Shown: positions 155-14,551 of the stretch, piece after piece
Layout of the letters: each line of letters starts with the position of its first letter
Numbering within the stretch: the first letter of the stretch is position 1
Source of the DNA: a virus
IMG/VR virus record: IMGVR_UViG_3300028563_000308
Location: 1 to 22,298 of that record
Reading direction: 5' to 3' (one strand)
Length of the DNA: 22,298 nucleotides
Made by a program: the position numbers and the translations under genes
The notes under the pieces: model-generated
The model's input: only the letters and a program-made list of their open reading frames with translations
Databases searched by the model: none
What the model was told of the DNA's origin: nothing

Positions 155-829
155 ATGGGGCACTGCGAAGAGACACTCGCGGATCTCAGCAAGGCGGCCG
201 AGCGCTCCTCGTCTGTGCTGGTTGCCTACTCAGGCGGCAAGGACGCGATGGTGACCATGGATCTGTGTGTGCGGTCGTTCAAACAAGTCCGCGCGTTCCA
301 CATGTTTTTGGTCCCCGGGCTCGAGTGCATACAGGCCATGATGGACTTCGCCAAGTCCCGGTGGGGCATCACCGAGATTCTCCAGTATCCGCACTTCTGC
401 CTGCCGAAGCTGTTGAAAGCCGGCATCTACTGCCCGAACCACTACTCCCGCGACAACCTGCCAGAACTGCAGTTGACGGACATCTACGGCGCAGCTATGC
501 ACGACACCGGTGTCCACATGATCGCGACGGGCGCCAAGAAGGCGGACTCGATCTTCAGGCGCAAGAGCTGGCAGCAATTTGAGAAAGATTACCTCGTTTA
601 TCCGCTCAAAGATTGGAGTACGCGCGATGTGCTCGGCTACCTCCAGCTCCGCGGCCTGCCGATGCCGTCCATGAACAAGGGTCACCAAATGAGCGGGATT
701 GACTTGACAGCCAGAGACCTTTTGCGCGTCCATGACGAATTTCCACGAGACTTCGCTAAGCTAGAGGTGGTATTCCCTTATGTGGGAGCTGTTGTAAAGC
801 GGAGGGAGTGGCATGGAATCGCAGCATAA
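155..829 (+). CDS. PAPS reductase-like PP-loop ATP pyrophosphatase
   Basis: This 224-residue protein belongs by motif to the phosphoadenosine-phosphosulfate reductase / PP-loop superfamily. The ATP-binding PP-loop SGGKDA lies at about residues 26-31 after a beta strand (VLVAY). A later TGAKKADSIFRRKSW stretch matches the family's second conserved region, which contacts nucleotide and substrate. Family members activate substrates with ATP, giving an adenylated intermediate, in sulfate reduction, tRNA thiolation or DNA phosphorothioation (DndC). I do not see the cysteine motif of assimilatory reductases, and no sulfate pathway genes are near. The neighbours are ParB-like and ABC-GNAT genes, which suggests phage DNA modification rather than sulfur assimilation; this is inference. 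ATG 155 follows the previous stop directly. The 3' end overlaps the next gene by 17 bases. Confidence 0.85.
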   Translation: MGHCEETLADLSKAAERSSSVLVAYSGGKDAMVTMDLCVRSFKQVRAFHMFLVPGLECIQAMMDFAKSRWGITEILQYPHFCLPKLLKAGIYCPNHYSRDNLPELQLTDIYGAAMHDTGVHMIATGAKKADSIFRRKSWQQFEKDYLVYPLKDWSTRDVLGYLQLRGLPMPSMNKGHQMSGIDLTARDLLRVHDEFPRDFAKLEVVFPYVGAVVKRREWHGIAA

Positions 830-1235
830 AGGTTTCTACTTTATCAGTGGGGCATGGCTGATTGCATGGTGCCTGATCGTTGGAGGCGCGCTAGCGGTCG
901 GGATACATGCGCAGCAGCCTAAACCGGCGACCGCTGAGCAGAAGGCCCAGCAGTGGGGTGCTCCCTGCTATCAAGGTCTCGGTCTGGAATGGGTGTGCGG
1001 TGACGGGAAGTCCACGAAGGGGAAGCAAACCAGCCACGCGCAGTCCAGCCATCTGCCGGGCCACGGGCAATCGTTCGTTGTGATCGGCGACGACGGCCAG
1101 CCGGTGCTCACGGTGTACAGCGATGGCACTGTGGAGTTTCGCAAGGGCGTTCCAGTCACCGACGCTACTAAGCAGTTCGTCGAAGCCGTGCGGCAGATCA
1201 TGCCGTGTTCGTCCACCCCAGCCAAAGCCCAATGA
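813..1235 (+). CDS. Small membrane-anchored or secreted protein, unknown function
   Basis: A 140-residue protein with one hydrophobic segment at about residues 10-33 (ISGAWLIAWCLIVGGALAVG). It is followed by HAQQ, which could be a signal-peptidase site or simply the exit of a membrane anchor. The rest is hydrophilic, with two cysteines near residues 52-62 and a DDGQPVLTVYSDGTVEF stretch that looks like a beta hairpin. The start at 813 has a strong purine-rich Shine-Dalgarno (GGAGGGAG) and lies inside the previous gene. The stop overlaps the next start as ATGA. It is translationally coupled between the PP-loop gene and the parB-like gene, yet its membrane location does not obviously fit a DNA-modification role. 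No family recognised. Confidence 0.7.
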   Translation: MESQHKGFYFISGAWLIAWCLIVGGALAVGIHAQQPKPATAEQKAQQWGAPCYQGLGLEWVCGDGKSTKGKQTSHAQSSHLPGHGQSFVVIGDDGQPVLTVYSDGTVEFRKGVPVTDATKQFVEAVRQIMPCSSTPAKAQ

Positions 1236-1858
1236 GCGAAGAGAAGAAAACGCGGAAGCCGAAAGCGGCGACGGCAGAGTCTGAATCGTCGACCTTCAAG
1301 GCGGACGCCTACCAGATCGTGACGATGAAGCGCTCGGAGCTCAAGTCAGCTGCGTACAATCCTCGCGTGATAAACGACACCGAGAAGAAGAAGCTCCGCG
1401 CCGGGTTGAAGAAGCACAAGATGGTGCAGCCGCCAACATGGAACAAACGTAGCGGAATTTTGGTCGGAGGTCACCAGCGGCTTTCGCAGCTCGATGTGCT
1501 TGCCGGCGGTAAAGACTACGAACTACAGGTGGCCGTCATCGACGTCACTGAGGCCGAGGAGAAGGAAATCAACATCCTGCTCAACAACTCGATGGCACAA
1601 GGCACGTGGGATCTCCCCAAACTTGAAGATCTTCTGCGCGATCCAGGGATTGACATCTTTGGCACCGGCTTCGACCAGCTTGATGTGGAGCGATTGTTCG
1701 GGTCCTTCCCCAAGGAAGAAGAACTCGACGTCGCGGCGCAACTTGCCAACGGCATGGAATACCGCGTGGTGGTGGACTGTACCGATGAATTGCAGCAGAC
1801 TGAGTTGCTGGACCGCTTCGGAAACGAGGGACTGAAATGTCGCGCTCTTATTTCTTGA
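1232..1858 (+). CDS. ParB N-terminal domain protein
   Basis: A 208-residue protein with a ParB/Sulfiredoxin-type domain. After a lysine-rich tail it shows SAAYNPR at about residues 39-45, then an AGLKKHKMVQP helix, and the characteristic ILVGGHQRL box at about residues 76-84, the nucleotide-binding GGHQR/GERR motif of ParB-like proteins. In phages such short ParB-like proteins commonly neighbour DNA methylases or modification enzymes rather than partition genes. No parA or centromere-like repeat is seen here, so partition is unlikely. I chose ATG 1232 over an in-frame ATG at 1205 because it gives an ATGA overlap with the upstream stop. The protein ends normally (GLKCRALIS), so the antisense gene that starts to overlap at 1848 has not truncated it. 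Confidence 0.85.
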   Translation: MSEEKKTRKPKAATAESESSTFKADAYQIVTMKRSELKSAAYNPRVINDTEKKKLRAGLKKHKMVQPPTWNKRSGILVGGHQRLSQLDVLAGGKDYELQVAVIDVTEAEEKEINILLNNSMAQGTWDLPKLEDLLRDPGIDIFGTGFDQLDVERLFGSFPKEEELDVAAQLANGMEYRVVVDCTDELQQTELLDRFGNEGLKCRALIS

Positions 1859-2231
1859 GTTTGTGAGGGCAGATTCCGCCGTTGCGATACCGGCCCGTAT
1901 TGCAATTCTGGCAAAGCAATTGATAGTCGCGCGGAAAGTCAGCATCGCGAATGCATTGATAGAGGGTGCGCGGCCCATAGCTCCCCGCGGCGAGGAGTTG
2001 AGATCGATGCTCGCGCCCATTACCACTGACGTGATCGATGGTCAAGAACATACACTCGCGTTCGCCGCAACATGCACACTTCATCCCGTAGTGCCGGTAA
2101 ACGAGATCGCGAAGAGCGGCGGTGTTAGCGCGGCCTCTCACTCGGAGTTTTGCGGCGCAGGCGGCACAACTCTTGTACCCTTTGCGCACCGAGTCATGTC
2201 CACAAATTGGGCACACGCCACGGGAAAGCAA
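1848..2231 (-). CDS. HNH endonuclease, homing type
   Basis: The protein has an N-terminal zinc ribbon (CPIC, CAAC) and then a treble-clef HNH nuclease core: CACCGERE, then LTIDHVSGNGREHR with the catalytic D-H pair, then LLCQNCN. Such free-standing HNH genes are mobile homing endonucleases that cut and invade related phage genomes. It sits antisense in the gap between the parB-like and ABC-GNAT genes, overlapping the parB end by 11 bases, as expected for an inserted homing gene. The TTG at 2231 is the first standard start. However, coding-like sequence continues in frame to about 2288 (LPYKDPQQNAVYARN), where a CTG stands at the place of the initiator in MPYKDP-type homologues. The true start may therefore be that CTG, or the usual start has been lost by a small mutation. 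Confidence 0.85.
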   Translation of the reverse strand: MLSRGVCPICGHDSVRKGYKSCAACAAKLRVRGRANTAALRDLVYRHYGMKCACCGERECMFLTIDHVSGNGREHRSQLLAAGSYGPRTLYQCIRDADFPRDYQLLCQNCNTGRYRNGGICPHKLKK

Positions 2232-2308
2232 ATTGACGCGAAGATTTCGCGCATATACAGCGTTTTGCTGGGGATCTTTGTAGGGCAGGGCATCTCAATT
2301 ATAACATT

Positions 2309-3418
2309 ATGCGTTGTGATCTCATAGTCGAATCGGAACCGTCGCATTCTGCCCGGGCGAAGCAGCTCTCGGCCATGTTCGACGTCCCGCCGATGGACAA
2401 GTGCCGCATGGAATGGCATGGCGATATTCCGATTGAGGCGAGCGGCTGGAACGTCGGGCTGATCGTGGGGCCGTCCGGTTGCGGCAAGTCGAGCATCGCT
2501 CGTGATCTGTTCGGCACCGACTATCATCCGGATCTCGAATGGCACGGTAAGAGCGTGGTGGACGATTTTGCGGCGTCGCTGCCTATGGAGACTGTGACGC
2601 AGGCCTGCAGCGCGGTAGGATTCAATACGATACCGGCCTGGCTGCGACCGTTCCATGTGCTTTCGAACGGCGAACGCTTTCGGGTGGAACTGGCCCGCCG
2701 GCTACTGGAACTGCCGGACCCTATCGTGGTGGACGAATTCAGCAGCGTGGTGGACCGCCAAGTCGCGCAGATCGGATCGTATGCGGTACAGAAGTTCGCG
2801 CGCAAACACAATCGCCGCTTCGTCGCCGTGTCGTGTCACTACGATATCGTCGACTGGCTGCAGCCGGACTGGGTCTTCGAGCCGGCTACCATGACTTTGT
2901 CACGGAGGTTACTTCGGCAACGCCCAAGCCTCGATGTCACGATTGGGCGGCTTCCCTATTCCGCCTGGCGGATGTTCGCTCCATTTCACTATATGAGTGC
3001 GAAATTGCATCGCGCGGCGCGCTGCTATGGGCTGTGGGTGGGTAAGACGCTGACAACCTTCTGCGGCGTGCTGCCCAAACCGGTGAGCAACGGTCCGAAG
3101 AAGGGCACGGCGATCGCGGGCGTCTCGCGCGTGGTCACTCTACCCGACTGGCAAGGATTGGGATTGGCATTCGTGCTGATGGAAAAGTTGGGAGCGGCTT
3201 ACGGTGCGATTGGCAAGAGATTTCGCAACTACCCGGCGCATCCGGCATTCGTCAGGGCGTCGGATCGGTCAAAATACTGGGAAATGAAGAAGCGGCCGGG
3301 CACGTTCAGCGTCGTCAGTTCAGCCGGCCGCTTTGGCGGCCGGCCCTGCGCAGTCTTCGAGTACCGTGGACCGCTCATGGCGGTGTCCGAGGCGAAGATT
3401 CTGCTTTCGGTGGCTTGA
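2309..3418 (+). CDS. ABC-type ATPase fused to GNAT acyltransferase domain (COG2401-like)
   Basis: A 369-residue two-domain protein. Residues about 45-200 form an ABC ATPase: Walker A GPSGCGKSS at 54-62, signature VLSNGERFRVELARR at 117-131, Walker B PIVVDEFSS at 138-146, and switch histidine VSCHYD at His177. There is no membrane domain, so it is a soluble ABC ATPase, not a transporter. The C-terminal third looks like a GNAT fold, with the acetyl-CoA loop in VTLPDWQGLGLAFVLMEKLG at about 277-296. The architecture matches COG2401 (ABC ATPase fused to a predicted acetyltransferase). The phage Mu DNA modifier Mom is also GNAT-like. With the neighbouring ParB-like and PP-loop proteins I infer a DNA-base modification role; tRNA or protein acylation is an alternative. 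ATG 2309 is the only good start after the HNH gene. Confidence 0.82.
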   Translation: MRCDLIVESEPSHSARAKQLSAMFDVPPMDKCRMEWHGDIPIEASGWNVGLIVGPSGCGKSSIARDLFGTDYHPDLEWHGKSVVDDFAASLPMETVTQACSAVGFNTIPAWLRPFHVLSNGERFRVELARRLLELPDPIVVDEFSSVVDRQVAQIGSYAVQKFARKHNRRFVAVSCHYDIVDWLQPDWVFEPATMTLSRRLLRQRPSLDVTIGRLPYSAWRMFAPFHYMSAKLHRAARCYGLWVGKTLTTFCGVLPKPVSNGPKKGTAIAGVSRVVTLPDWQGLGLAFVLMEKLGAAYGAIGKRFRNYPAHPAFVRASDRSKYWEMKKRPGTFSVVSSAGRFGGRPCAVFEYRGPLMAVSEAKILLSVA

Positions 3419-3671
3419 AGTGAAACACGTAATACGGACCCGTGGCGGCGCCGTAGCAATCAGTCAGGTCCGCGCGCGACACCAGCGCAGCAGCCAGCAA
3501 GGATGTGCGCGTGTGAATGTCCACACGCTCAACATTGAGCCGGAACCGCCCATTGATAGAGATAGAATCACCCGCCCGCAGATTGCGGTATCGGGGACCA
3601 AGGCGGATCTCGCACGTTTTTGTTCCGGCGAGGATCTGATCGACGAAACGCTGTTTAACGAATAGGAGCAT
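3375..3671 (-). CDS. ASCH-domain protein
   Basis: A 98-residue protein resembling the ASCH (PUA-like beta-barrel) superfamily. It begins LLFVKQRFVDQILAGTKTCE, the family's opening strand-helix with the GTKTxExR signature, followed by RLGPRYRNLRAGDSI and a strand carrying LNVERVDI. ASCH domains bind RNA or nucleosides, and one characterised member, E. coli YqfB, hydrolyses N4-acetylcytidine. The gene is tail to tail with the ABC-GNAT gene and overlaps its last 44 bases. Its start lies inside the stop region of an upstream 49-residue gene, so those two form a small - strand operon. A reader or eraser of acylated nucleosides made by the opposing GNAT protein is an attractive inference with no direct support. 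Confidence 0.78.
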   Translation of the reverse strand: MLLFVKQRFVDQILAGTKTCEIRLGPRYRNLRAGDSISINGRFRLNVERVDIHTRTSLLAAALVSRADLTDCYGAATGPYYVFHFKPPKAESSPRTPP

Positions 3672-4601: not shown

Positions 4602-4868
4602 CTACTTGTTTACCATCTCCCACAATTTAGCCCAGGCAGTAGTGAGGCGCGCGGCCTGGAGCTGCGTCGTGTGCATCGGTATCGTACTAGTGACTGCAAC
4701 GATGGTCGGGACTCCGTCGACTACCTTGGAAGCGTACACGTGGAAGTTGGCTGGCGCATTGTCCGCAAGCGTCACCTTCCAGCCGGATTCCGCGAGTTGC
4801 CGTATCGCCAGCTTGGCGGTTGGAAATGTTGACAGAACGAATGCGGTGTACTGCTCTCGGTTCATCAT
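4602..4868 (-). CDS. Hypothetical protein, 88 residues
   Basis: An 88-residue soluble-looking protein beginning MMNREQYTAFVLSTFPTAKL, with alternating helix and strand (SGWKVTLADNAPANFHVYAS) and no membrane segment or metal site. It is the last gene of a - strand operon. Its start overlaps the stop of the upstream DUF488 gene by four bases, so it is probably translated by coupling. It converges with the small zinc-ribbon gene, with only 17 bases between stops and no obvious terminator. Family not recognised; a role linked to the DUF488 protein is inferred from position only. Confidence 0.62.
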   Translation of the reverse strand: MMNREQYTAFVLSTFPTAKLAIRQLAESGWKVTLADNAPANFHVYASKVVDGVPTIVAVTSTIPMHTTQLQAARLTTAWAKLWEMVNK

Positions 4869-5374
4869 GACGAAGCAAACTCCGCCGGCAGCGTCGCCAG
4901 AATATCGTAGGGTCGCTGCTGCTCAATTGCCCCCTGCAGCTCGCTTGCCAGAATTATCTCGTCTCGATAGACGTGCAGGCAGTCGAGGTGATGAAGCAGT
5001 GGGGATCGGTCGACGCCGGCAATCACTGGCGTCTGCGCCAAGCGATCGAGTAGCTTCAACGCAATCTGAAAGTGACGGTGGCACATGGCCGGCGCCTCCT
5101 CCTTGCACAGGAGTAGCAGGCGCTTCGACTGTTCATAACCGGCCAGCCAGCCAATACCTTCTGCTGTCGCTCCAGCGCCCCGGCCGCCGAGGTTCTGACC
5201 TTGCCAGGCATATTTCTGTGGGAATAGCTGGCGGAGATGCTGACCGCCGAAGCCAGGCCGGCGACTCTGCGGGATCGAGCGGCTGTCGACAAGCAAGTCG
5301 ATTTGCAGGTGCTCCATCAGGCGCACGAGACGCGGCGGCTGCATGTGATCGTATCCGATGGTGTAGATGCTCAC
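4865..5374 (-). CDS. DUF488 family protein
   Basis: A 169-residue protein with the features of DUF488: the opening MSIYTIGYDH, then IDLLVDSRSIPQSRRPGF, then LGGRG, and the late CKEEAPAMCHRH box (C...CHR) on a predicted strand-loop that probably forms the conserved site. Family members are widespread, rather small alpha/beta proteins of uncertain biochemical role, often annotated only as DUF488. Here it is flanked with four-base overlaps by a LuxR-type HTH protein upstream and an unknown protein downstream, all on the - strand. The 355-residue open frame on the opposite strand (4588-5655) is a shadow of this operon. Confidence 0.82.
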   Translation of the reverse strand: MSIYTIGYDHMQPPRLVRLMEHLQIDLLVDSRSIPQSRRPGFGGQHLRQLFPQKYAWQGQNLGGRGAGATAEGIGWLAGYEQSKRLLLLCKEEAPAMCHRHFQIALKLLDRLAQTPVIAGVDRSPLLHHLDCLHVYRDEIILASELQGAIEQQRPYDILATLPAEFASS

Positions 5375-5592
5375 AACCCGAACTCCTTGGCGCGAGCCTT
5401 CAGTTCACGGGTAGCGGCTGTGAGCCCCAGTTTCCGTGCGACATTCTTCAGGTGAATCTTCACCGTTCCGGAAGCAATGCCAAGGGCGGCTCCAACCTCT
5501 TTGTGAGATTTACCAGCAATGATTTCTCTGGCGACCTGGGTCTCCCGGTCGGTGAGGGGAAGCGGAGATTTCTCGGTAGCGTTCTCTGTCAT
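5371..5592 (-). CDS. Stand-alone LuxR/GerE-type HTH regulator
   Basis: A 73-residue protein that is almost only a LuxR-type HTH domain: LTDRETQVAREIIAGKSHKE at residues 13-32, then VGAALGIASGTVKIHLKNV as turn and recognition helix, and ARKLGLTAATREL after it. No receiver or ligand domain is present, so it resembles GerE-type minimal regulators that act by dimerising on DNA. It heads a three-gene - strand operon and is divergent from the terminase small-subunit gene with 34 bases between starts. The inverted repeat in that gap is a natural candidate operator for it, which would let one small protein control both its own operon and packaging genes (inference). Confidence 0.88.
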   Translation of the reverse strand: MTENATEKSPLPLTDRETQVAREIIAGKSHKEVGAALGIASGTVKIHLKNVARKLGLTAATRELKARAKEFGL

Positions 5593-5597
5593 GAAAG

Positions 5598-5621
5598 GAG
5601 TATATCATATAGGGTATACTC
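5598..5621. promoter_or_regulatory. Inverted repeat in divergent promoter interval
   Basis: GAGTATA-tcatataggg-TATACTC is a perfect seven-base inverted repeat with a ten-base spacer, lying between the divergent HTH regulator and terminase starts. The interval is AT-rich compared with its surroundings. TATACT (5615-5620) on + and TATGAT on - resemble -10 boxes, but the distance from TATACT to ATG 5627 would leave almost no leader. I read it as a probable operator for the LuxR-type protein; promoter assignment is weak. Confidence 0.45.
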
Positions 5622-5626
5622 TTGCT

Positions 5627-6277
5627 ATGGACAATTTGACAATCTATGGGCTTGAGGCAAGTGGAGGCAGTGAGGTGAGGTCGCAGCAACGTGTAAACAA
5701 TCCCGTAAACCCAAAAAAGCGGAATAAGCGGAAGCCACGGGAGACGCCTGCCCTGAATTACGGGCAGATCATCGACATCGTTCAAGGGAAGGAGGGCGTC
5801 GATGGAGACCGGGCAATCGCGGAGCATATTCGCAGCCTGATCCGCAAAGGCAATCAGCGCGCGATTATTAATTTGGCACAACTTGCGCAGCTGGCTGAGC
5901 ATCATTGGACGATTGACGAGATCGCGGCGTTCTTCCGCGTGTCCGAGAAGACAATCGATGTGTTGTTGAAGCAGGCGCAGGTGTCCGATCTGTACACACA
6001 GGGCAAGGCGCGCGGCCGAGGAATGTTGCGCAGTGCCCAGTTCAAGGCGGCCATCAAAGGGAATGTCACAGCCCAAATTTGGTTAGGCAAAAACCTCTTA
6101 GGGCAGCGCGATTCCTTCGAGGTAAGCGGTCCCAACGGCAGCCAACTGCAGGGGAATAACACCTACATCACGCTGGACTATTTCCGGCTGATGGCGGCGG
6201 TAGCGGACGGCAAGCTGCCGATCTCTGTGCTGGATCGCAAGAAGGATGAGGAGCAGAAGCAGATCGATGCCGCGTAA
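5627..6277 (+). CDS. Terminase small subunit-like DNA-binding protein
   Basis: A 216-residue protein immediately upstream of, and overlapping, the large terminase gene, the standard place for the small subunit that recognises the packaging site. Residues about 90-125 look like a helix-turn-helix (WTIDEIAAFFRVSEKTIDVL). The later ARGRGMLRSAQFKAAIKG and TAQIWLGKNLLGQRD stretches are typical of the terminase small-subunit / phage HTH class. The N-terminal 40 residues are basic and probably disordered. I chose ATG 5627 because it follows the divergent promoter interval. In-frame ATGs at 5591 and 5519 would run into the operator and the regulator gene. Sequence similarity among small terminases is low, so the name rests on HTH plus position. 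Confidence 0.78.
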   Translation: MDNLTIYGLEASGGSEVRSQQRVNNPVNPKKRNKRKPRETPALNYGQIIDIVQGKEGVDGDRAIAEHIRSLIRKGNQRAIINLAQLAQLAEHHWTIDEIAAFFRVSEKTIDVLLKQAQVSDLYTQGKARGRGMLRSAQFKAAIKGNVTAQIWLGKNLLGQRDSFEVSGPNGSQLQGNNTYITLDYFRLMAAVADGKLPISVLDRKKDEEQKQIDAA

Positions 6278-8063
6278 GTCCTCAACGGTCGTGCAGGAGC
6301 AGCCGGCGAAGTCGCGTGTGACGCGGCGCCCGGTGCGCTCCCAGCAGTCCGAGGAAGCCCATGGTATGACCATGGACGAGGTCATATCGAACGTATCCCC
6401 TCATGGGTTCGCGGCTTCGTCGCTACACCACGATCACTGGGAGAAGCCGAACGCTATTCTGGACAGCATCGCGGTCAACCGCAAGACTGCGGTTAAGTCG
6501 TGCCACGCTTCTGGGAAAACGTTTCTGTCGGCCGACGCTGTGCTCTGGTGGATCAGTCGTTGGGATTCGGCGATCGCCATATCGACGGCGCCAACCTGGA
6601 AGCAGGTACAGCATCTGCTGTGGGGAGAGATTAGATCCAGCGTGCGCAAAGGGATCTATGGGATTCCTTCCAGCGGTCTGACGTCCACCCAGTTGAAGCT
6701 CAGCGACAAGAATTACGCGCTCGGGATATCCACCAACGAGGGCGTGAACTTCCAGGGCTTCCATAGCGATCACATTTTGTTCGTGCTCGACGAGGCGCCC
6801 GGCGTCGACCCGGCAATCTGGGACGCGATCGAGGGCGCGGCGGCCGGCGGGCATGTTGCAATCCTGGCGATCGGTAACCCGATCGTACCGAGCGGGACGT
6901 TCTACGACGCGTTCAATGCCAAGCGCCACCTGTGGAACCGGTTCACCATCTCGGCATTCGATACGCCCAATCTGCAGGGAGTGAGCTACACATTCACCGA
7001 TCCGATCCTGCAACGTGAAGTTACGCTCGGCAGCGGCAAGGACATCATGAGCCTTTCCGAGCAGGAACTAAACGAGAACGTTCGGCCATACCTCGTCACT
7101 CGCGGCTGGGTCAAAGAGAGGATCATCGATTGGGGTCCCGGACATCCACTCTTCGACTCGAAGGTCTTGGGCGAGTTCCCAGCCGAGAGCGAGTTCTCGC
7201 TAATTTCGCTTCGCTGGATCGACATGGCCAAGTACGCCATCGTCCCGACGTCAGAGAAGATTCGCTTCGGGCTCGACGTGGCAGGTCCAGGTGAGGCTGA
7301 GACTGTGCTCATTGGCATGCGCGGGCAGCGGATGGAATCGCTGAAGGCATGGCCGCATGCGGATCCGCGCGGCGAGATTGTCGCCATCCTGCGGCCGTTC
7401 TTCGAACGCGGCGAGCTCGAGCAGGTGAATATTGATTCAGCCGGCATCGGGTGGGGGATGTATCTTCACTTGCGGGACATCTTCGGCGGGAGCATCATCA
7501 AGGCCGTCAACGTCGGAGAGGGAGCGTACGACTCGGAGCACTTCGTCAACCTCAAGGCCGAGCTGTATTGGGGATTGCGCATGCGGTTCAAGGATGGGGC
7601 GATCGCCGGCGAGTTCGACGACGTGCTTCAGGGGCAACTGGCCTCCATCCTTTACGAGCACAACGCGCGCGGTCAGGTGAAGATCGAAACGAAGGACGAC
7701 GCCAAGAAGCGCGGCGTACCTTCCCCTGACAGGGCTGAGGCGTTGATGCTGGCTACGGCCAAGAACAGCATGCCGTTGGGGTTGCTTGGGCACGGACAGG
7801 CCGAGAACAAGGCGGCAGAGACCGAGGAGCTGGACCGGCTTGTGAAGGCTTCCATTACCGCGGTGCCGGTAGTTGGCGTGCAGGTTGTTGAGCAGAAGAC
7901 CGCGACCGCGCCAGGCTCCAGCGTCTGCCCAAAGTGCGCGTCGGATTGCATCTCTCGGATACCGGGCGGATTCCGGTGCTCACAGTGTGGAGAGCAGTTC
8001 GGGCAGGCTGTTGTGGCGCCTTCCGCCGGTGGTGGGCGTGGTGGTATGCTGAATGGCATATGA
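6267..8063 (+). CDS. terL: Terminase large subunit with C-terminal zinc ribbon
   Basis: A 598-residue packaging motor protein. The ATPase domain has a Walker A-like KSCHASGKTFL at about residues 77-87 and Walker B ILFVLDEAP, with Asp175-Glu176. The RNase H-like nuclease domain starts around RFGLDVAGPGEAE with Asp337 as a likely metal ligand, and a later acidic NIDSAGIGWG stretch contributes the second. It cuts concatemeric phage DNA and pumps it through the portal. After the nuclease, an extra tail carries CPKC and CSQC (about residues 554-577), a four-cysteine zinc ribbon not usual in this family. ATG 6267 gives an 11-base overlap with the small subunit; an in-frame ATG at 6246 also exists. 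Overlaps the next gene as ATGA. Confidence 0.93.
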   Translation: MPRKSSTVVQEQPAKSRVTRRPVRSQQSEEAHGMTMDEVISNVSPHGFAASSLHHDHWEKPNAILDSIAVNRKTAVKSCHASGKTFLSADAVLWWISRWDSAIAISTAPTWKQVQHLLWGEIRSSVRKGIYGIPSSGLTSTQLKLSDKNYALGISTNEGVNFQGFHSDHILFVLDEAPGVDPAIWDAIEGAAAGGHVAILAIGNPIVPSGTFYDAFNAKRHLWNRFTISAFDTPNLQGVSYTFTDPILQREVTLGSGKDIMSLSEQELNENVRPYLVTRGWVKERIIDWGPGHPLFDSKVLGEFPAESEFSLISLRWIDMAKYAIVPTSEKIRFGLDVAGPGEAETVLIGMRGQRMESLKAWPHADPRGEIVAILRPFFERGELEQVNIDSAGIGWGMYLHLRDIFGGSIIKAVNVGEGAYDSEHFVNLKAELYWGLRMRFKDGAIAGEFDDVLQGQLASILYEHNARGQVKIETKDDAKKRGVPSPDRAEALMLATAKNSMPLGLLGHGQAENKAAETEELDRLVKASITAVPVVGVQVVEQKTATAPGSSVCPKCASDCISRIPGGFRCSQCGEQFGQAVVAPSAGGGRGGMLNGI

Positions 8064-9857: not shown

Positions 9858-11885
9858 GTGGCAAATCAAATCAGGGATCTCGGGCCGATAGCCGCGGCGC
9901 TGGGACAGATGGCTAATCGTCTGTATCAGCCCCCATCGGATCAGATCCCAGGGAACAATCCGCAGGCGTGGCCAGCCGCGCTCAACCCCGTCTCTCCTCT
10001 CGGACGAAACGGCTCCCAGCCTCTGTCTATCCCCTTCTGGGAAGGCATCAACCTCAACTACACGGTAAGGTCCGACTCGAAGTTCAAGCCGGAAGACCTG
10101 CAGTTGCTGGCCGCCTACCCGCTGGCGCGCATCTGCATCGACAACACCAAGGACGTGCTGGGAAAGATCCCGTGGAAGATCCAGCCAAAGGTGAAGTTTG
10201 GGGAGTCGAGGGAAGCGCATTCCAAGCGATCACAGGGCGACCAGACCGTGTTGGCGCTGAGCCGCTTCTTTGAGTATCCGGACGGTGAGAATAATTGGTC
10301 TGAGTGGCTACGGCTGATCAATGAGGACATGCTAGTGCTCGATGCGCCGGCTGTCCAGATCTGCCGGCTGCGAAATAAGAAGGTCGTCAAGCTGCGCGTG
10401 CTGCCGGGAGAGGATATCACTCGCTACGTCGACGACAACGGCGACATGCCACAGGAAGGACCAGCCTTCGCGCAGCTTTGGCAAGGGATCCCTCGAATTA
10501 ACCTAACGGCAGACCAACTTGTGTATCGGCCGCGGAACTACTTCCACCGCAAGGGCGTCATCGCCAGCTACCTTTTTGGGTACGGGCCTACTGAGGCCAT
10601 GGCGTTGCACATTCAGATTGGTATTCAGCGGCTGCTTTTCGTTTTGGCCTACTATACCCAAGGGAGTATTCCAGACTTCATTCACGTCATCCCTGGCGGC
10701 GCCGACAACAAAGAAGTCAAGACGGCGTTCGAGTACACCAATAGCGTTCTCAAAGGCCAGCTCGACAAGCGGCGCGGGTACATCCCAATTCAAGGGTTCA
10801 CGCCGGACGGCAAGGATCAGTTCCTCTTTCCGAAGGAGAAGCTGCTGGCCGATGCGTTCGACGACCTGCACATCCGATACCTGTGCTACGGATATGGATG
10901 CTCGCCGCAGCGACTCCTCCGCATGCTCAACCGGGCGACCGGCGAGGCGAACCAGGACGCAGCTGAAGACGAGGGTGTAGATCCGTTCCGCCAGTTTGAC
11001 CAGGACTTCGTCAACTACATCATTCAGCGTCGGATGGGCTTCCCCGACTACGAGATGGTGCTGTCGTCGAAGCACGATACCGATGCGGTCAACCAGGCGA
11101 CAGCGGATGCCTCAGATGTCGGGTCAGCCCTTATTCGCATCAATGAGATTCGCGAGCGGCGCGGTCTTGATCCTGATCCGAACCCACTGGCCAATCAACT
11201 CCTGATGAAGACGGTCAATGGCCTGGTCGCGCTCGGCACTCCTCCCCCTGTGCCCGGCGGCGGTGGCGGCCCAGAACCAACGGCCGGGGCGCCCAAGCCC
11301 AAACCCGCGGCGGCAAGCGGAAAGTCTCTTTGGGAAGAGACGATGCAGAAGGGTATCGAATCGTTGGCGGTTCGTGCCAAGTCGGCCGCGTTCGGAGTGC
11401 TTACCAAGTATTCGGAAGAACAGCCTCGTGTACCAGCCGGCGGCGCAGGTGGCGGTGAATTCGCTTCGCCTGGCGCTACTGGTGGCAAACAGCGTTCTGA
11501 GAAGGCTCTGCGAGCTCTGAAGAACTTCGTTCCCACCACAAAGGCAGACCACGCCAAGGCCGAACTGCAGGAGCAGCGCTTGGCCAGAGGTCTCGGACTG
11601 GAACGAACGGGCGACAATCAGCCATTCGATCTGGTAGGGAACAAGGTGGCTGTAGAACTTAAAACGCTCATTTCGAACACCAACGACAAAATCACCATGC
11701 GCAAGGACGCGCTCCAGCGCAAAGTGGAAGCGGCCAAGAGCATGAAGGCCAAGATGTATACGGTTGTGGCGGATGCGCGCGCGGGCTCTACCAAATACTT
11801 CGTGCGCGAAGGAGTCGGTTCATTCCGCCTTTCCAGCATGACTCAAACCACGCTGAACGAATTGAAACTGATCCTGAAAAAATGA
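9858..11885 (+). CDS. Portal protein with C-terminal PD-(D/E)XK-like domain
   Basis: A 675-residue protein. Residues about 1-455 look like a phage portal: position between terminase and MuF gene, the DNA-contacting fold with GEDITRYVDDNG, a middle FGYGPTEAMALHIQIG, a YLCYGYGCSPQRLLRM region and a C-terminal INEIRERRGLDPDPNPLANQ, which is very typical of portals. It forms the dodecameric DNA channel of the capsid. A Pro/Ala/Gly linker then leads to QPRVPAGGAGGGEFA at about 522 and a separate domain with FDLVGNKVAVELKT. Asp591, Glu600 and Lys602 give the D-x8-ExK pattern of restriction-type nucleases. That extension is not part of ordinary portals. The GTG at 9858 is the start. The end overlaps the MuF gene by four bases. 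Confidence 0.88.
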   Translation: MANQIRDLGPIAAALGQMANRLYQPPSDQIPGNNPQAWPAALNPVSPLGRNGSQPLSIPFWEGINLNYTVRSDSKFKPEDLQLLAAYPLARICIDNTKDVLGKIPWKIQPKVKFGESREAHSKRSQGDQTVLALSRFFEYPDGENNWSEWLRLINEDMLVLDAPAVQICRLRNKKVVKLRVLPGEDITRYVDDNGDMPQEGPAFAQLWQGIPRINLTADQLVYRPRNYFHRKGVIASYLFGYGPTEAMALHIQIGIQRLLFVLAYYTQGSIPDFIHVIPGGADNKEVKTAFEYTNSVLKGQLDKRRGYIPIQGFTPDGKDQFLFPKEKLLADAFDDLHIRYLCYGYGCSPQRLLRMLNRATGEANQDAAEDEGVDPFRQFDQDFVNYIIQRRMGFPDYEMVLSSKHDTDAVNQATADASDVGSALIRINEIRERRGLDPDPNPLANQLLMKTVNGLVALGTPPPVPGGGGGPEPTAGAPKPKPAAASGKSLWEETMQKGIESLAVRAKSAAFGVLTKYSEEQPRVPAGGAGGGEFASPGATGGKQRSEKALRALKNFVPTTKADHAKAELQEQRLARGLGLERTGDNQPFDLVGNKVAVELKTLISNTNDKITMRKDALQRKVEAAKSMKAKMYTVVADARAGSTKYFVREGVGSFRLSSMTQTTLNELKLILKK

Positions 11886-14551
11886 GCTATTCGATCGCCA
11901 ACGAGACCAAGGATTTAGGGCAGTTCGCCAGCAATCTGGGCTATGGTCAACTGGTAGACGCTGCAGAGGGATACTCGCACCTCGAAGACCTGATCCATGA
12001 CGGCTGGACGGAAGACGTGGTGGACCTGGTGTCGGACCTGCGGCAGCTCGCGGCCGACACAGAGGATGAAGACGTATCCTCGACGGCGTCTGGGCTGGCC
12101 GATTTGATCGATGGCGAAGAGATCGTGGTGGTCCACGACGGAACGACCAAAGAAGATCCAGGCGAGGGACACGAGGATACTGGGATTGATGGCGCCGGCA
12201 AGGTTCAGAAGACAGGAAAAATCACCAAGCTTGTGCGGAGCCACAAGGTAGAGCGTGCGCAACTTGGGCTCAAGAACGTTCTCACAGAGTTCCTGCGAGA
12301 CGCTGGCAAGCACGTGGCAGCGAAGATTCGCCAGTTCGGACACAGCGATAAGGCCTCGAAGGCGCTCGCCAAATACTCATACGGTTCGACTCAGGTAGAC
12401 ATCGATCCACTGAGCGACATCGGCATGGCGATGGCCGCGCTGAGAAGTCAGATAGAAGTGGCGGACCTGGCCGGCAAGGGACTTGAGCCTGAAGCGCACG
12501 TAACAGTGCGCTATGGAATCATCGACGACGAATACGATGAACTGCGGCGTTATATCCGCAGTCTGCGGCCGTTCACTATGACCTTCGGTCCGCTCGCTGC
12601 ATTCCCACCGACGGTAAATAGCGACAACGCCGCTGTGCTCATCCTGCCAGTACAGTGTGCCGAACTGGAGACGATCAACGCGGAATTGGCGGACCACGCG
12701 CACTTCAAGGAAGCGAGTTTCGTCTATCGATCACACGCCACGATCGCATACGTGAGGCCAGAATCTGCCGCGAAGTACGTCGGCAAAGACATAGGATCTG
12801 GGCTGTCGTTCGTTGCAGCGTCCATCACGATATGTAGTAAGGACGACACGCAGGAAGTGGTACCACTGGAAGGGACTGTCAGTAAGGCAGTTAAGTCATT
12901 CAAGAAAGCCGCCCCGGCGAGCGATGTAGAGGAAATGCTCAACCGGGTTCTGACGATCAACTGGTCGGAACTGCCGCGGCGCGTTACTGAGTACCTCCAG
13001 GAGATTGCGCAGGATACCGGATCGCGGGCGCTTCTTCAGGTGCGTTCGCACGATTCGGACATCATCACGGACGTCAATGAGGCTGCGGCGGATTGGGCGG
13101 CGGAGCGCGGCGCCGAGATGGTTGGAAAGAAGTGGGTCGACGGGGAGCTCGTGGACAACCCCGATGCGCGCTGGGCGATCTCGGAAACCACGCGTGAAGA
13201 CCTTCGACGCATTATTACAGACGCCTTCGAAGGCCCGATGACGATTCAAGAGCTGGCGGATGAGGTTGAAGAAGCCGGCGCATTCTCGGCCAGTCGTGCT
13301 GAAATGATCGCTAATACGGAAGGCGCGCGCGCCGAGGTAAAAGGGCAGCTCACCGGGTGGCGGGAGAGCGGGGTCGTTGATAGGGCGCAATATTTGCTAA
13401 GCTCTGATCACCCTGAAAATAGTGATTGCAATTGCGAGGATCTTGCGGAAGAGAACGGAGGCATATACGACTTAGCTGACGCTCCCGAGGTCCCTCAGCA
13501 CCCGAACTGCCTCGTAGGGAATGTAGTCGTATCTGCCAGCGGAGTCGAGGCGGCGATGAAACGATGGTTTGAGGGGGAAATCATTGTCATTCGAATCGCG
13601 GGGGCAGCCGACATATCCGTTACTCCAAATCACCCGATACTGACGCGGAGAGGATGGGTAGCTGCCGGACTGCTGCAGATCAACGATGAGGTTTTGCAGT
13701 GCTCTGACCCAGCCGCAGCGGTCCGTCTTGTTAACCCAAACAATAACTACATGGAGACCGGCATCGAGCAGATATCGGATACGCTTTTGATGGCGTGCGG
13801 CGGCTCTACCGCTACTGTGCCATCCTCCACCGAAGCATTCCACGGCGATGGAATGGCTAATGGTGAAGTCGGGGTTATACGGTCCTACGGCCATCTGAGT
13901 CGAAGCCCCAAAGCGTTTGAGAGCGTGTTGCACGCGTGTTTCACTGTCAGTGAGCGGAATGGGGTTACTTTCTCTGGAGATGGCGCGGAGGCAGAGTTCC
14001 TCAAATGGAGCCACTCTACCACGGACGGCAGCGTGCGCAGCATTAGCATTCCCTCTTCTCTGCTCAGGAGTAAACCTGGAATGTCGAAGAATACCAACCT
14101 CGTGGCCGCTGCGAACTATAAGCCCGGCGCTCCGGAACGCTCTGAGCAAGACGGTATGGCTGGTTCCAAGCCTTTTGGCGATGGAATACGCAGTATCTCC
14201 GGACATGTATGCATCGTGCAGGAGCGGGAGGTCGGCGCTGGAGAATCCTCGGATAAGGGCGTGATGCTCTCCAAGACTGCGACAAGAGAATCCGGCTGCC
14301 ATCATGACGCGGCCTATGACTTTACTGGTGACTCCGATGCGCTTGGCAATGTGGCTGAGCGGCTCTCCAGATTGATGCGCCCGGTTAAACTCCTGGACAT
14401 TTTCAGGCGTAAATTCGTAGGCCATGTCTTTAATCTCCAAACAGATACGGGGTTTTATTTCGCCAATACCATTATAGTGCACAACTGTTGGTGTGCGCTA
14501 GCACCGGTTTTGATCGGCGCTGAAGCGCCTGGGAGTGAAGACGATGAATAG
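11882..14551 (+). CDS. MuF/SPP1 gp7-like head morphogenesis protein with 2H domain, interrupted by an intein
   Basis: An 889-residue reading frame. The N-terminal 130 residues are acidic and of unknown role. Residues about 175-330 look like a 2H phosphoesterase: HVTVRYG at His206 and HATIAYV at His285, the two H-x-T motifs about 80 residues apart. Residues about 345-542 plus 869-889 form the MuF head-morphogenesis domain (AEMIANTEGARAEV, WRESGV, then PEVPQHPN). The conserved HPNCxC motif is split: residues 543-868 are an intein, and joining the exteins restores HPNCWCALAPV, the normal family ending. The spliced protein would be 563 residues. MuF proteins sit near the portal and help head assembly; extra enzymatic domains on them are sometimes injected effectors. 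Start overlaps the portal gene (ATGA). Confidence 0.9.
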   Translation: MSYSIANETKDLGQFASNLGYGQLVDAAEGYSHLEDLIHDGWTEDVVDLVSDLRQLAADTEDEDVSSTASGLADLIDGEEIVVVHDGTTKEDPGEGHEDTGIDGAGKVQKTGKITKLVRSHKVERAQLGLKNVLTEFLRDAGKHVAAKIRQFGHSDKASKALAKYSYGSTQVDIDPLSDIGMAMAALRSQIEVADLAGKGLEPEAHVTVRYGIIDDEYDELRRYIRSLRPFTMTFGPLAAFPPTVNSDNAAVLILPVQCAELETINAELADHAHFKEASFVYRSHATIAYVRPESAAKYVGKDIGSGLSFVAASITICSKDDTQEVVPLEGTVSKAVKSFKKAAPASDVEEMLNRVLTINWSELPRRVTEYLQEIAQDTGSRALLQVRSHDSDIITDVNEAAADWAAERGAEMVGKKWVDGELVDNPDARWAISETTREDLRRIITDAFEGPMTIQELADEVEEAGAFSASRAEMIANTEGARAEVKGQLTGWRESGVVDRAQYLLSSDHPENSDCNCEDLAEENGGIYDLADAPEVPQHPNCLVGNVVVSASGVEAAMKRWFEGEIIVIRIAGAADISVTPNHPILTRRGWVAAGLLQINDEVLQCSDPAAAVRLVNPNNNYMETGIEQISDTLLMACGGSTATVPSSTEAFHGDGMANGEVGVIRSYGHLSRSPKAFESVLHACFTVSERNGVTFSGDGAEAEFLKWSHSTTDGSVRSISIPSSLLRSKPGMSKNTNLVAAANYKPGAPERSEQDGMAGSKPFGDGIRSISGHVCIVQEREVGAGESSDKGVMLSKTATRESGCHHDAAYDFTGDSDALGNVAERLSRLMRPVKLLDIFRRKFVGHVFNLQTDTGFYFANTIIVHNCWCALAPVLIGAEAPGSEDDE
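13472..14425 (-). CDS. Antisense homing endonuclease, HTH plus Vsr/EDxHD-like nuclease
   Basis: A 317-residue protein encoded on the strand opposite the intein. Two helix-turn-helix repeats are visible: LSHIAKRIGVTSKVIGRVMM near 23-42 and SIAKRLGTSHTVLLRAF at 81-97. A nuclease core follows: TDSETRVQHALKRFG (Glu162), GPYNPDFTIS (Asp186) and IAVECFGGGWH (Glu196, His203), then ARHQKRIRYLLDAG and a VVIVWV strand. This is the pattern of Vsr-related EDxHD homing endonucleases, which cut intein-free alleles. ATG 14425 has GGAG nine bases upstream; an in-frame ATG at 14482 lacks such support. The codons lie exactly opposite intein codons (same register). The last 12 codons, including the stop, use 36 bases of N-extein sequence. 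Antisense transcription needs its own promoter, which I could not identify. Confidence 0.8.
   Translation of the reverse strand: MAYEFTPENVQEFNRAHQSGEPLSHIAKRIGVTSKVIGRVMMAAGFSCRSLGEHHALIRGFSSADLPLLHDAYMSGDTAYSIAKRLGTSHTVLLRAFRSAGLIVRSGHEVGILRHSRFTPEQRRGNANAAHAAVRGRVAPFEELCLRAISRESNPIPLTDSETRVQHALKRFGASTQMAVGPYNPDFTISHSIAVECFGGGWHSSGRAAARHQKRIRYLLDAGLHVVIVWVNKTDRCGWVRALQNLIVDLQQSGSYPSSPRQYRVIWSNGYVGCPRDSNDNDFPLKPSFHRRLDSAGRYDYIPYEAVRVLRDLGSVS
13508..14485 (+). mobile_element. Intein inserted at the HPNC motif of the MuF gene
   Basis: The 326-residue intein begins with Cys (codon 543, CLVGNVVVSASG) and carries the block B T-x-x-H motif in VTPNHPILTRRGW. It ends with GHVFNLQTDTGFYFANTIIV followed by His-Asn at codons 867-868, with Cys as +1 residue. 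All residues needed for class 1 protein splicing are present, so it should be active. Mini-inteins need only about 130-150 residues. The extra roughly 180 residues hold no LAGLIDADG or HNH motif on the + strand but include the AFHGDG stretch that I associate with other phage inteins. The coding sequence of a nuclease runs antisense through almost the whole element. Confidence 0.92.

Follow-up and report, generated by a model that had tools for sequence, protein, structure and literature searches.

To our knowledge, it is still unclear by which route Mom of phage Mu produces modified adenine and by what means the enzyme reaches DNA. For a second kind of phage enzyme, in which a GNAT acyltransferase is fused to an ABC ATPase (ABC-GNAT), the original prediction is said to be that of Iyer et al. 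in Nucleic Acids Research in 2013. The ABC ATPase-coupled GNAT is predicted to acyl-modify a DNA base; the source that reports this prediction cites earlier work and shows no product (PMC7824862). Here we describe an ABC-GNAT locus on the IMG/VR virus record IMGVR_UViG_3300028563_000308, analysed at full length as a whole contig of 22,298 bases (the window), which encodes head and packaging genes of phage type. The locus is a natural hybrid of two separate phage modules and not one conserved three-gene system. Module A consists of a ParB-like protein with a C-terminal adaptor of ~38 residues, followed by ABC-GNAT. Module B consists of a PP-loop gene followed by a ParB with a different adaptor.

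The hybrid nature is most evident in the ParB-like protein. Over residues 1-160 the window ParB shares 50-58% identity with its best matches among PP-loop-linked ParBs and 26-31% with those linked to ABC-GNAT, and in the N-domain tree this part is nested in the PP-loop clade (support 97/89 inside 100/100). In the C-terminal part the identity is 62-83%, here to the adaptors from the closest ABC-GNAT-linked ParBs. On these computed sequence comparisons the protein is a chimera of a module-B N-domain and a module-A adaptor. An initial annotation of the window had grouped the PP-loop, ParB-like and ABC-GNAT genes into a single candidate DNA-modification module. All three genes lie where it placed them, as judged by family matches and gene calls, and absent from it were an HNH gene between ParB and ABC-GNAT and an ASCH-like gene at the ABC-GNAT 3' end. 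The features of the locus are as follows.

155 to 829 (+): PP-loop ATP-pyrophosphatase, PAPS-reductase-like, the module B enzyme (PF01507, 37.2 bits, cut-off 22.5)
813 to 1235 (+): small protein with a single N-terminal membrane segment (best 19-residue hydropathy 2.08)
1232 to 1858 (+): ParB-like protein, entire gene (phrog_620, 1.3e-25; AlphaFold2 (AF2) model matches ParB/Noc structures)
1232 to 1732 (+): ParB/Srx-fold N-domain of the chimeric ParB, PP-loop-module type (identity, clade, structure)
1733 to 1858 (+): C-terminal adaptor ("bab"), ABC-GNAT-module type (62-83% identity, as above)
1848 to 2231 (-): homing-type HNH endonuclease gene, an insertion at the ancestral overlap of ParB and ABC-GNAT (phrog_2255, 1.8e-6)
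2309 to 3418 (+): ABC ATPase fused to GNAT acyltransferase (phrog_11143, 1.5e-91; His227-Tyr228 at 2987-2992; AF2 predicted local distance difference test score (pLDDT) 86.9)
3375 to 3671 (-): ASCH-like (PUA-like) protein, convergent with and overlapping ABC-GNAT (PF04266, 6.2e-4)
4865 to 5374 (-): DUF488 protein (PF04343, 3.4e-7)
5519 to 8063 (+): terminase small and large subunit genes, a recurrent downstream context of modules A and B (position, homology)

The three genes co-occur nowhere else among the records tested. The PP-loop gene is present in none of 73 ABC-GNAT records (many of which are fragments), and neither ABC-GNAT nor its adaptor was found in any of 84 PP-loop loci, within the stretch read. 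The conserved linkage proposed in the initial annotation therefore fails for the triple, while it holds for each pair with ParB. On these counts the PP-loop protein was rejected as a partner of ABC-GNAT, and the comparison of ParB N-domains tied it to ParB instead. A joint pathway of PP-loop, ParB and ABC-GNAT towards a combined thio/acyl base, as initially proposed, would accord with the closely packed gene run in the window and with the conservation of each ParB pair. However, we consider it highly improbable given the absence of co-occurrence elsewhere and a ParB that is recombinant of both types. The proposed link to DNA modification is supported by the ParB/ABC-GNAT and PP-loop/ParB linkages and by the parallel with Mom, but not in the form of a single three-gene pathway.

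Two modules and the history of the locus

The window ABC-GNAT is a member of phrog_11143, matched over residues 9-325, and carries a complete Walker A, an LSNGE signature, a Walker B (DEFSSVVD) and the Q-G-x-G loop of GNAT proteins. The ABC and GNAT motifs are conserved across the 83 ABC-GNAT proteins aligned. In a structure search the AF2 model folds as an ABC ATPase plus GNAT, and Tenacibaculum phage pT24 is matched by tblastn with 4e-44 and 32% identity (hits H43/H44). In NCBIfam the protein matched only generic ABC transporter models, with scores far under the cut-offs, and in PADLOC the only matches (mad3, mad8) were weak.

The survey of ABC-GNAT covered 80 loci in IMG/VR and 79 phage records. 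A home-made profile detected ParB in 74 loci of the first survey and in 76 of 80 loci from bacterial genomes; the terminase genes that follow give many of the latter the look of prophages. An upstream ParB accompanies ABC-GNAT in 148 of the 167 loci in total and in 51 of 60 lineages (defined at 60% identity). The two genes usually overlap directly or nearly touch, and in a Gemmataceae locus (L225) they are naturally fused into one protein of 612 residues. The AF2 model of the window ParB matches ParB 5k5d, cytidine diphosphate-bound 6sdk and Noc 7nfu with E values of 5e-5 to 2e-4, and by this model the protein has the fold of nucleotide-binding ParB/Srx proteins.

Clustering of the neighbours revealed no further upstream gene as widespread as ParB, and next in conservation come terminase genes, which belong to unrelated types. 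This neighbourhood, together with the many substrates that GNAT enzymes generally have, could indicate that ParB/ABC-GNAT is a packaging accessory, or that the GNAT acylates protein or RNA, such as terminase, capsid, a host protein or transfer RNA (tRNA). We regard this as unlikely, since ABC-GNAT does not adjoin terminase in several phages (Pseudomonas aeruginosa phage Komp_PAO1_1, the Porphyromonas gingivalis phages and Arthrobacter phage EastWest), has formyltransferase and ASCH neighbours, and is replaced by Mom, a known DNA modifier with which it has ParB partners in common (see below).

In module B, the PP-loop motif SxGxKD is present in the window protein as SGGKD, with S26, G28, K29 and D30 invariant. 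As single-sequence queries against IMG/VR, the window PP-loop and ParB found no relative; an alignment-based search yielded 80 PP-loop loci. The nearest PP-loop relatives are 41-48% identical and have a ParB directly following. Across the 84 loci the PP-loop gene is followed by ParB in 44, many others have a standalone adaptor instead, and the relatives tend to sit upstream of terminase. The best phage matches of the window PP-loop and of the ParB N-domain are found in the same phages, i.e., LR1, JNU_P7 and Riemerella phages. A DndC-type thiolation, likewise raised in the initial annotation, finds no support, as the PADLOC search was without a DndC match; hmmscan of the window PP-loop against PADLOC gave only BrxP, with 5.8e-5 over 27 residues.

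The gene order provides insight into the history of the hybrid. In four loci (L297, L301-L303) the PP-loop gene is followed by ParB and a DUF488 homologue on the minus strand, and the window order matches theirs once the adaptor/ABC-GNAT/ASCH cassette and the surrounding small genes are set aside. The PP-loop/ParB module probably had DUF488 as its downstream neighbour from the outset, and the simplest history is one in which a PP-loop locus acquired the ABC-GNAT cassette by recombination within ParB. The HNH gene was inserted exactly in the ParB/ABC-GNAT overlap of ~22 bases, with the ends of ParB and ABC-GNAT complete on both sides and the HNH 3' end overlapping the ParB stop. In two loci (L002 and L003) this overlap is uninterrupted and lacks the HNH gene.

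Overlaps of a few bases between the PP-loop gene and the small protein gene, and between the latter and ParB, are operon-like. No homologue of the small membrane protein turned up in the related loci searched, and the initial annotation was therefore right in judging it a misfit. Its slot is occupied by a different gene of ~140 residues in some PP-loop loci, e.g., in LR1. An Rfam search gave no match, and a search for near-identical phages found none.

Mom, ABC-GNAT and the C-terminal adaptors

Mom, already invoked in the initial annotation, proves an apt comparison, as it replaces ABC-GNAT at the same locus and has an invariant His-Tyr (HY) motif in common with it. In P. gingivalis prophages with flanking genes of 88-96% identity, one has ABC-GNAT (with a formyltransferase) and the other has Mom. 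The Arthrobacter phages EastWest and LeeroyJ are homologous on both flanks (31-83%), with ParB-ABC-GNAT in the former and ParB-orf-Mom in the latter. The Enterococcus phages display a similar position of Mom and ABC-GNAT with a less clean swap, and in Microbacterium phage MenE ParB and Mom form an overlapping gene pair. In the ParB N-domain tree, which rests on few columns and has many open forks, Mom-linked ParBs are scattered among ABC-GNAT-linked ones with 10 changes, of which at least 6 are forced by starred branches.

In Enterococcus phage 9184 (L126, 4833-6346) ABC and GNAT are individual open reading frames (ORFs) beside the DNA polymerase gene. The swap is less clean here in that the GNAT ORF ends in ~80 residues similar to the polymerase that a related phage encodes, which gives the impression that the pair is located within the polymerase gene.

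His-Tyr is invariant in 76 Moms and 99-100% conserved in the 83 ABC-GNATs, and H227-Y228 and R274 of the window protein align with H58-Y59 and R111 of Mom. Profile comparison with a diverse alignment placed HY on HY with a P of 4e-4 versus 0.21 in the reversed control, which we interpret as supportive, not as proof, of a relationship. When the Moms compared were restricted to close ones, there was no match of note (probability 0.3%).

The last ~38 residues of the module-A ParB are a separately conserved unit. This adaptor also occurs as a lone small ORF directly before ABC-GNAT, with no full ParB, in Komp_PAO1_1, P. gingivalis phage011a and L081, and, with a weak match, in L080 and L063. The Mom-linked ParBs of LeeroyJ and MenE, the two that were aligned, have a CxxC-containing tail in its place. 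PP-loop-linked ParBs have another conserved C-terminus (FYxVVxF...), which can likewise be encoded by a small gene of its own behind the PP-loop gene. The AF2 model of the window ParB includes the adaptor at high confidence, yet no strands are called in it, so that the name "bab" rests on the sequence pattern; the adaptor may complete its sheet with a partner. That such adaptors dock the modifying enzyme to ParB seems to us somewhat better than an even prospect.

Neighbouring genes, proposed mechanism and alternatives

In 27 loci an ASCH-like gene, belonging to one of three subfamilies, is found in antisense at the 3' end of ABC-GNAT, compared to 1.5 expected by random placement; these loci are partly related and involve 10 lineages. 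The window ASCH scores 20.9 bits against PF04266 (cut-off 21.2), and the gene at the same position in L242 scores 30.6 bits. The ASCH protein YqfB hydrolyses N4-acylcytosines by K-x-x-T-x-R plus Glu, with Thr as the nucleophile (PMC6972931), and published work takes ASCH domains in the vicinity of GNAT systems to be modified-DNA binders (PMC7641849). The window protein displays K18-x-x-E21-x-R23, and the seeds of the two other subfamilies likewise have K-x-x-E-x-R (aligned by motif spacing, not structure). Glu is located at the spacing of the YqfB Thr nucleophile, so binding is likelier than hydrolysis; the window ASCH protein is a candidate reader of the modified base. We also have to consider that ABC-GNAT writes N4-acylcytosine, as the NTPase-GNAT TmcA does in tRNA, and that ASCH removes the mark like YqfB. 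By E-value TmcA (2zpa) ranks third among the PDB matches, with a match across both ABC-GNAT domains, and the activity of YqfB fits the second step. Nevertheless, the window ASCH and the two subfamily seeds are without the Thr nucleophile, and the HY motif and the locus swaps indicate Mom, which makes this alternative quite unlikely.

A PurN-like formyltransferase gene follows ABC-GNAT directly in 13 survey loci and in P. gingivalis phage011a; it lies at 6113-6730 in L084 and at 6128-6601 in L122, and L063-L073 and L078 also have it downstream of ABC-GNAT. In nearly all of them it starts at the ABC-GNAT stop or at most ~120 bases from it. An aspartate decarboxylase gene takes the position directly after ABC-GNAT in L082, L270 and L278. 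Both genes would fit a tailoring of the attached group. The modified base of Mu is a glycinamide derivative, the kind of group that PurN formylates.

The explanation that we favour, and hold to be reasonably probable, is that the locus is a hybrid of two DNA-modification modules with the ParB-like protein as their common platform. The gene families, linkages, swaps, shared motif and chimera are computational results; for the DNA substrate, chemistry, timing and adaptor docking we infer the following. The ParB/Srx-fold protein would bind nucleotide and phage DNA, and its short C-terminal adaptor would dock the modifying enzyme. In module A the ABC ATPase would place the enzyme on DNA. The GNAT domain, which holds the conserved His-Tyr, would take an acyl-derived group from coenzyme A and attach it in a Mom-like manner to an exocyclic amine of a base, most likely adenine N6. 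This acyl-type modification would probably occur late in infection, before packaging, and its product is probably recognised by the antisense ASCH protein. The modifying enzyme of module B would be the PP-loop protein. Recombination in ParB would have joined the module-B platform (PP-loop, ParB N-domain and DUF488 beyond) to the module-A cassette (adaptor, ABC-GNAT, ASCH). Although intact, the PP-loop gene lacks the adaptor that normally accompanies it, and may now be a relic or else encode an additional modifier that works independently.

DNA modification of some kind is in our opinion likely, while for a Mom-like adenine chemistry the chances are even. More speculatively, and with the balance tilted against it, ParB-like proteins may be a general phage platform into which Mom, ABC-GNAT and PP-loop enzymes plug via enzyme-specific C-terminal adaptors. 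This phage would have re-wired a PP-loop platform to ABC-GNAT by recombination where two domains meet, and its DNA may bear two different base modifications, one of them recognised by an ASCH reader.

Several observations weigh against the hybrid of two DNA-modification modules. In the literature consulted we found no measured modified base for ABC-GNAT or PP-loop/ParB phages, and a fold match that covers both ABC-GNAT domains, TmcA, is an RNA acetyltransferase. The similarity between the GNAT-domain and Mom profiles is weak (probability 34%), and Pfam Mom PF25680 does not match the window ABC-GNAT at E <= 1, compared to 253 bits for Mu Mom. In L157 (2501-4269) and L159 (1043-4074) Mom is located close upstream of ABC-GNAT in the same phage, so the two enzymes are not always alternatives; together they possibly make two modifications or a two-step one. 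Finally, the hybrid is present in one contig only, and no second contig with the same ParB was found. As the contig is metagenomic, this could result from an assembly artefact that joined two phages, to which we give minimal credence: the reading frame is kept across the join, which coincides with a domain boundary, no frame is broken, the G+C content is even (0.55-0.61), and beyond the inserted cassette follows a DUF488 gene homologous to that of the PP-loop module and oriented alike.

Elsewhere on the contig, a MuF-like head protein (11882-14551, +) has an N-terminal 2'-5' RNA ligase-like domain (PF13563, 1.9e-8), an unusual fusion, and contains an intein (13508-14485, +). Almost exactly opposite the intein, in antisense, lies a Vsr/MTES_1575-like homing endonuclease ORF of 336 residues (13472-14482, -). 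The distant relatives L377 and L378 (38-43% identity) have the same arrangement, so that intein and endonuclease share one DNA stretch on opposite strands in three phages. We know of no described case of this kind, and a literature search for it returned no obvious one.

Comparison with known systems

ABC-GNAT as a predicted DNA acyl-modifier is already published; the swaps, the adaptors, the links to tailoring genes and the chimera are additions of the present analysis. The joining of two gene sets inside one ParB gene suggests that phages swap DNA-tagging enzymes on a common platform in order to evade bacterial defences. A swap-in enzyme platform would, if true, explain how phages diversify their protection against restriction, and could give new DNA-labelling enzymes. 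Ready-made comparisons are available in the near-identical P. gingivalis prophages with Mom versus ABC-GNAT and in cultured Arthrobacter and Pseudomonas phages. Features to compare in the replacement of Mom and ABC-GNAT are the shared ParB partners, the added formyltransferase or aspartate decarboxylase, and the antisense ASCH.

Among the known systems, Mom of phage Mu (PF25680) resembles ABC-GNAT in being GNAT-type with an invariant HY and a later conserved Arg, and in occupying the same genomic slots with ParB partners from the same clades. By contrast, the window protein has a fused ABC ATPase and no Pfam Mom match, and the C-terminus of its partner ParB differs. TmcA, the tRNA(Met) cytidine acetyltransferase, is likewise an NTPase fused to GNAT with a detectable fold match, but has a helicase-type ATPase and an RNA substrate in contrast to the ABC ATPase of ABC-GNAT.

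DndC and BrxP of BREX type 4 belong to the same PP-loop ATP-pyrophosphatase superfamily as the window protein, with a weak match to BrxP. The window protein differs in lacking a DndC match and a recognised desulfurase or Dnd partner, and in being far shorter than BrxP. Closer are the loci of PP-loop/PAPS-reductase and ParB (phrog_2302/424) in Lactobacillus phage LR1 and Riemerella phages, in which the PP-loop protein and the ParB N-domain are alike and in the same order upstream of terminase; these carry another ParB C-terminus and, in all 84 loci, lack ABC-GNAT. The pT24-type ABC ATPase-coupled GNAT has the same architecture, family and predicted activity as the window protein, to which the window adds the ParB chimera, the antisense ASCH gene and the PP-loop neighbour.

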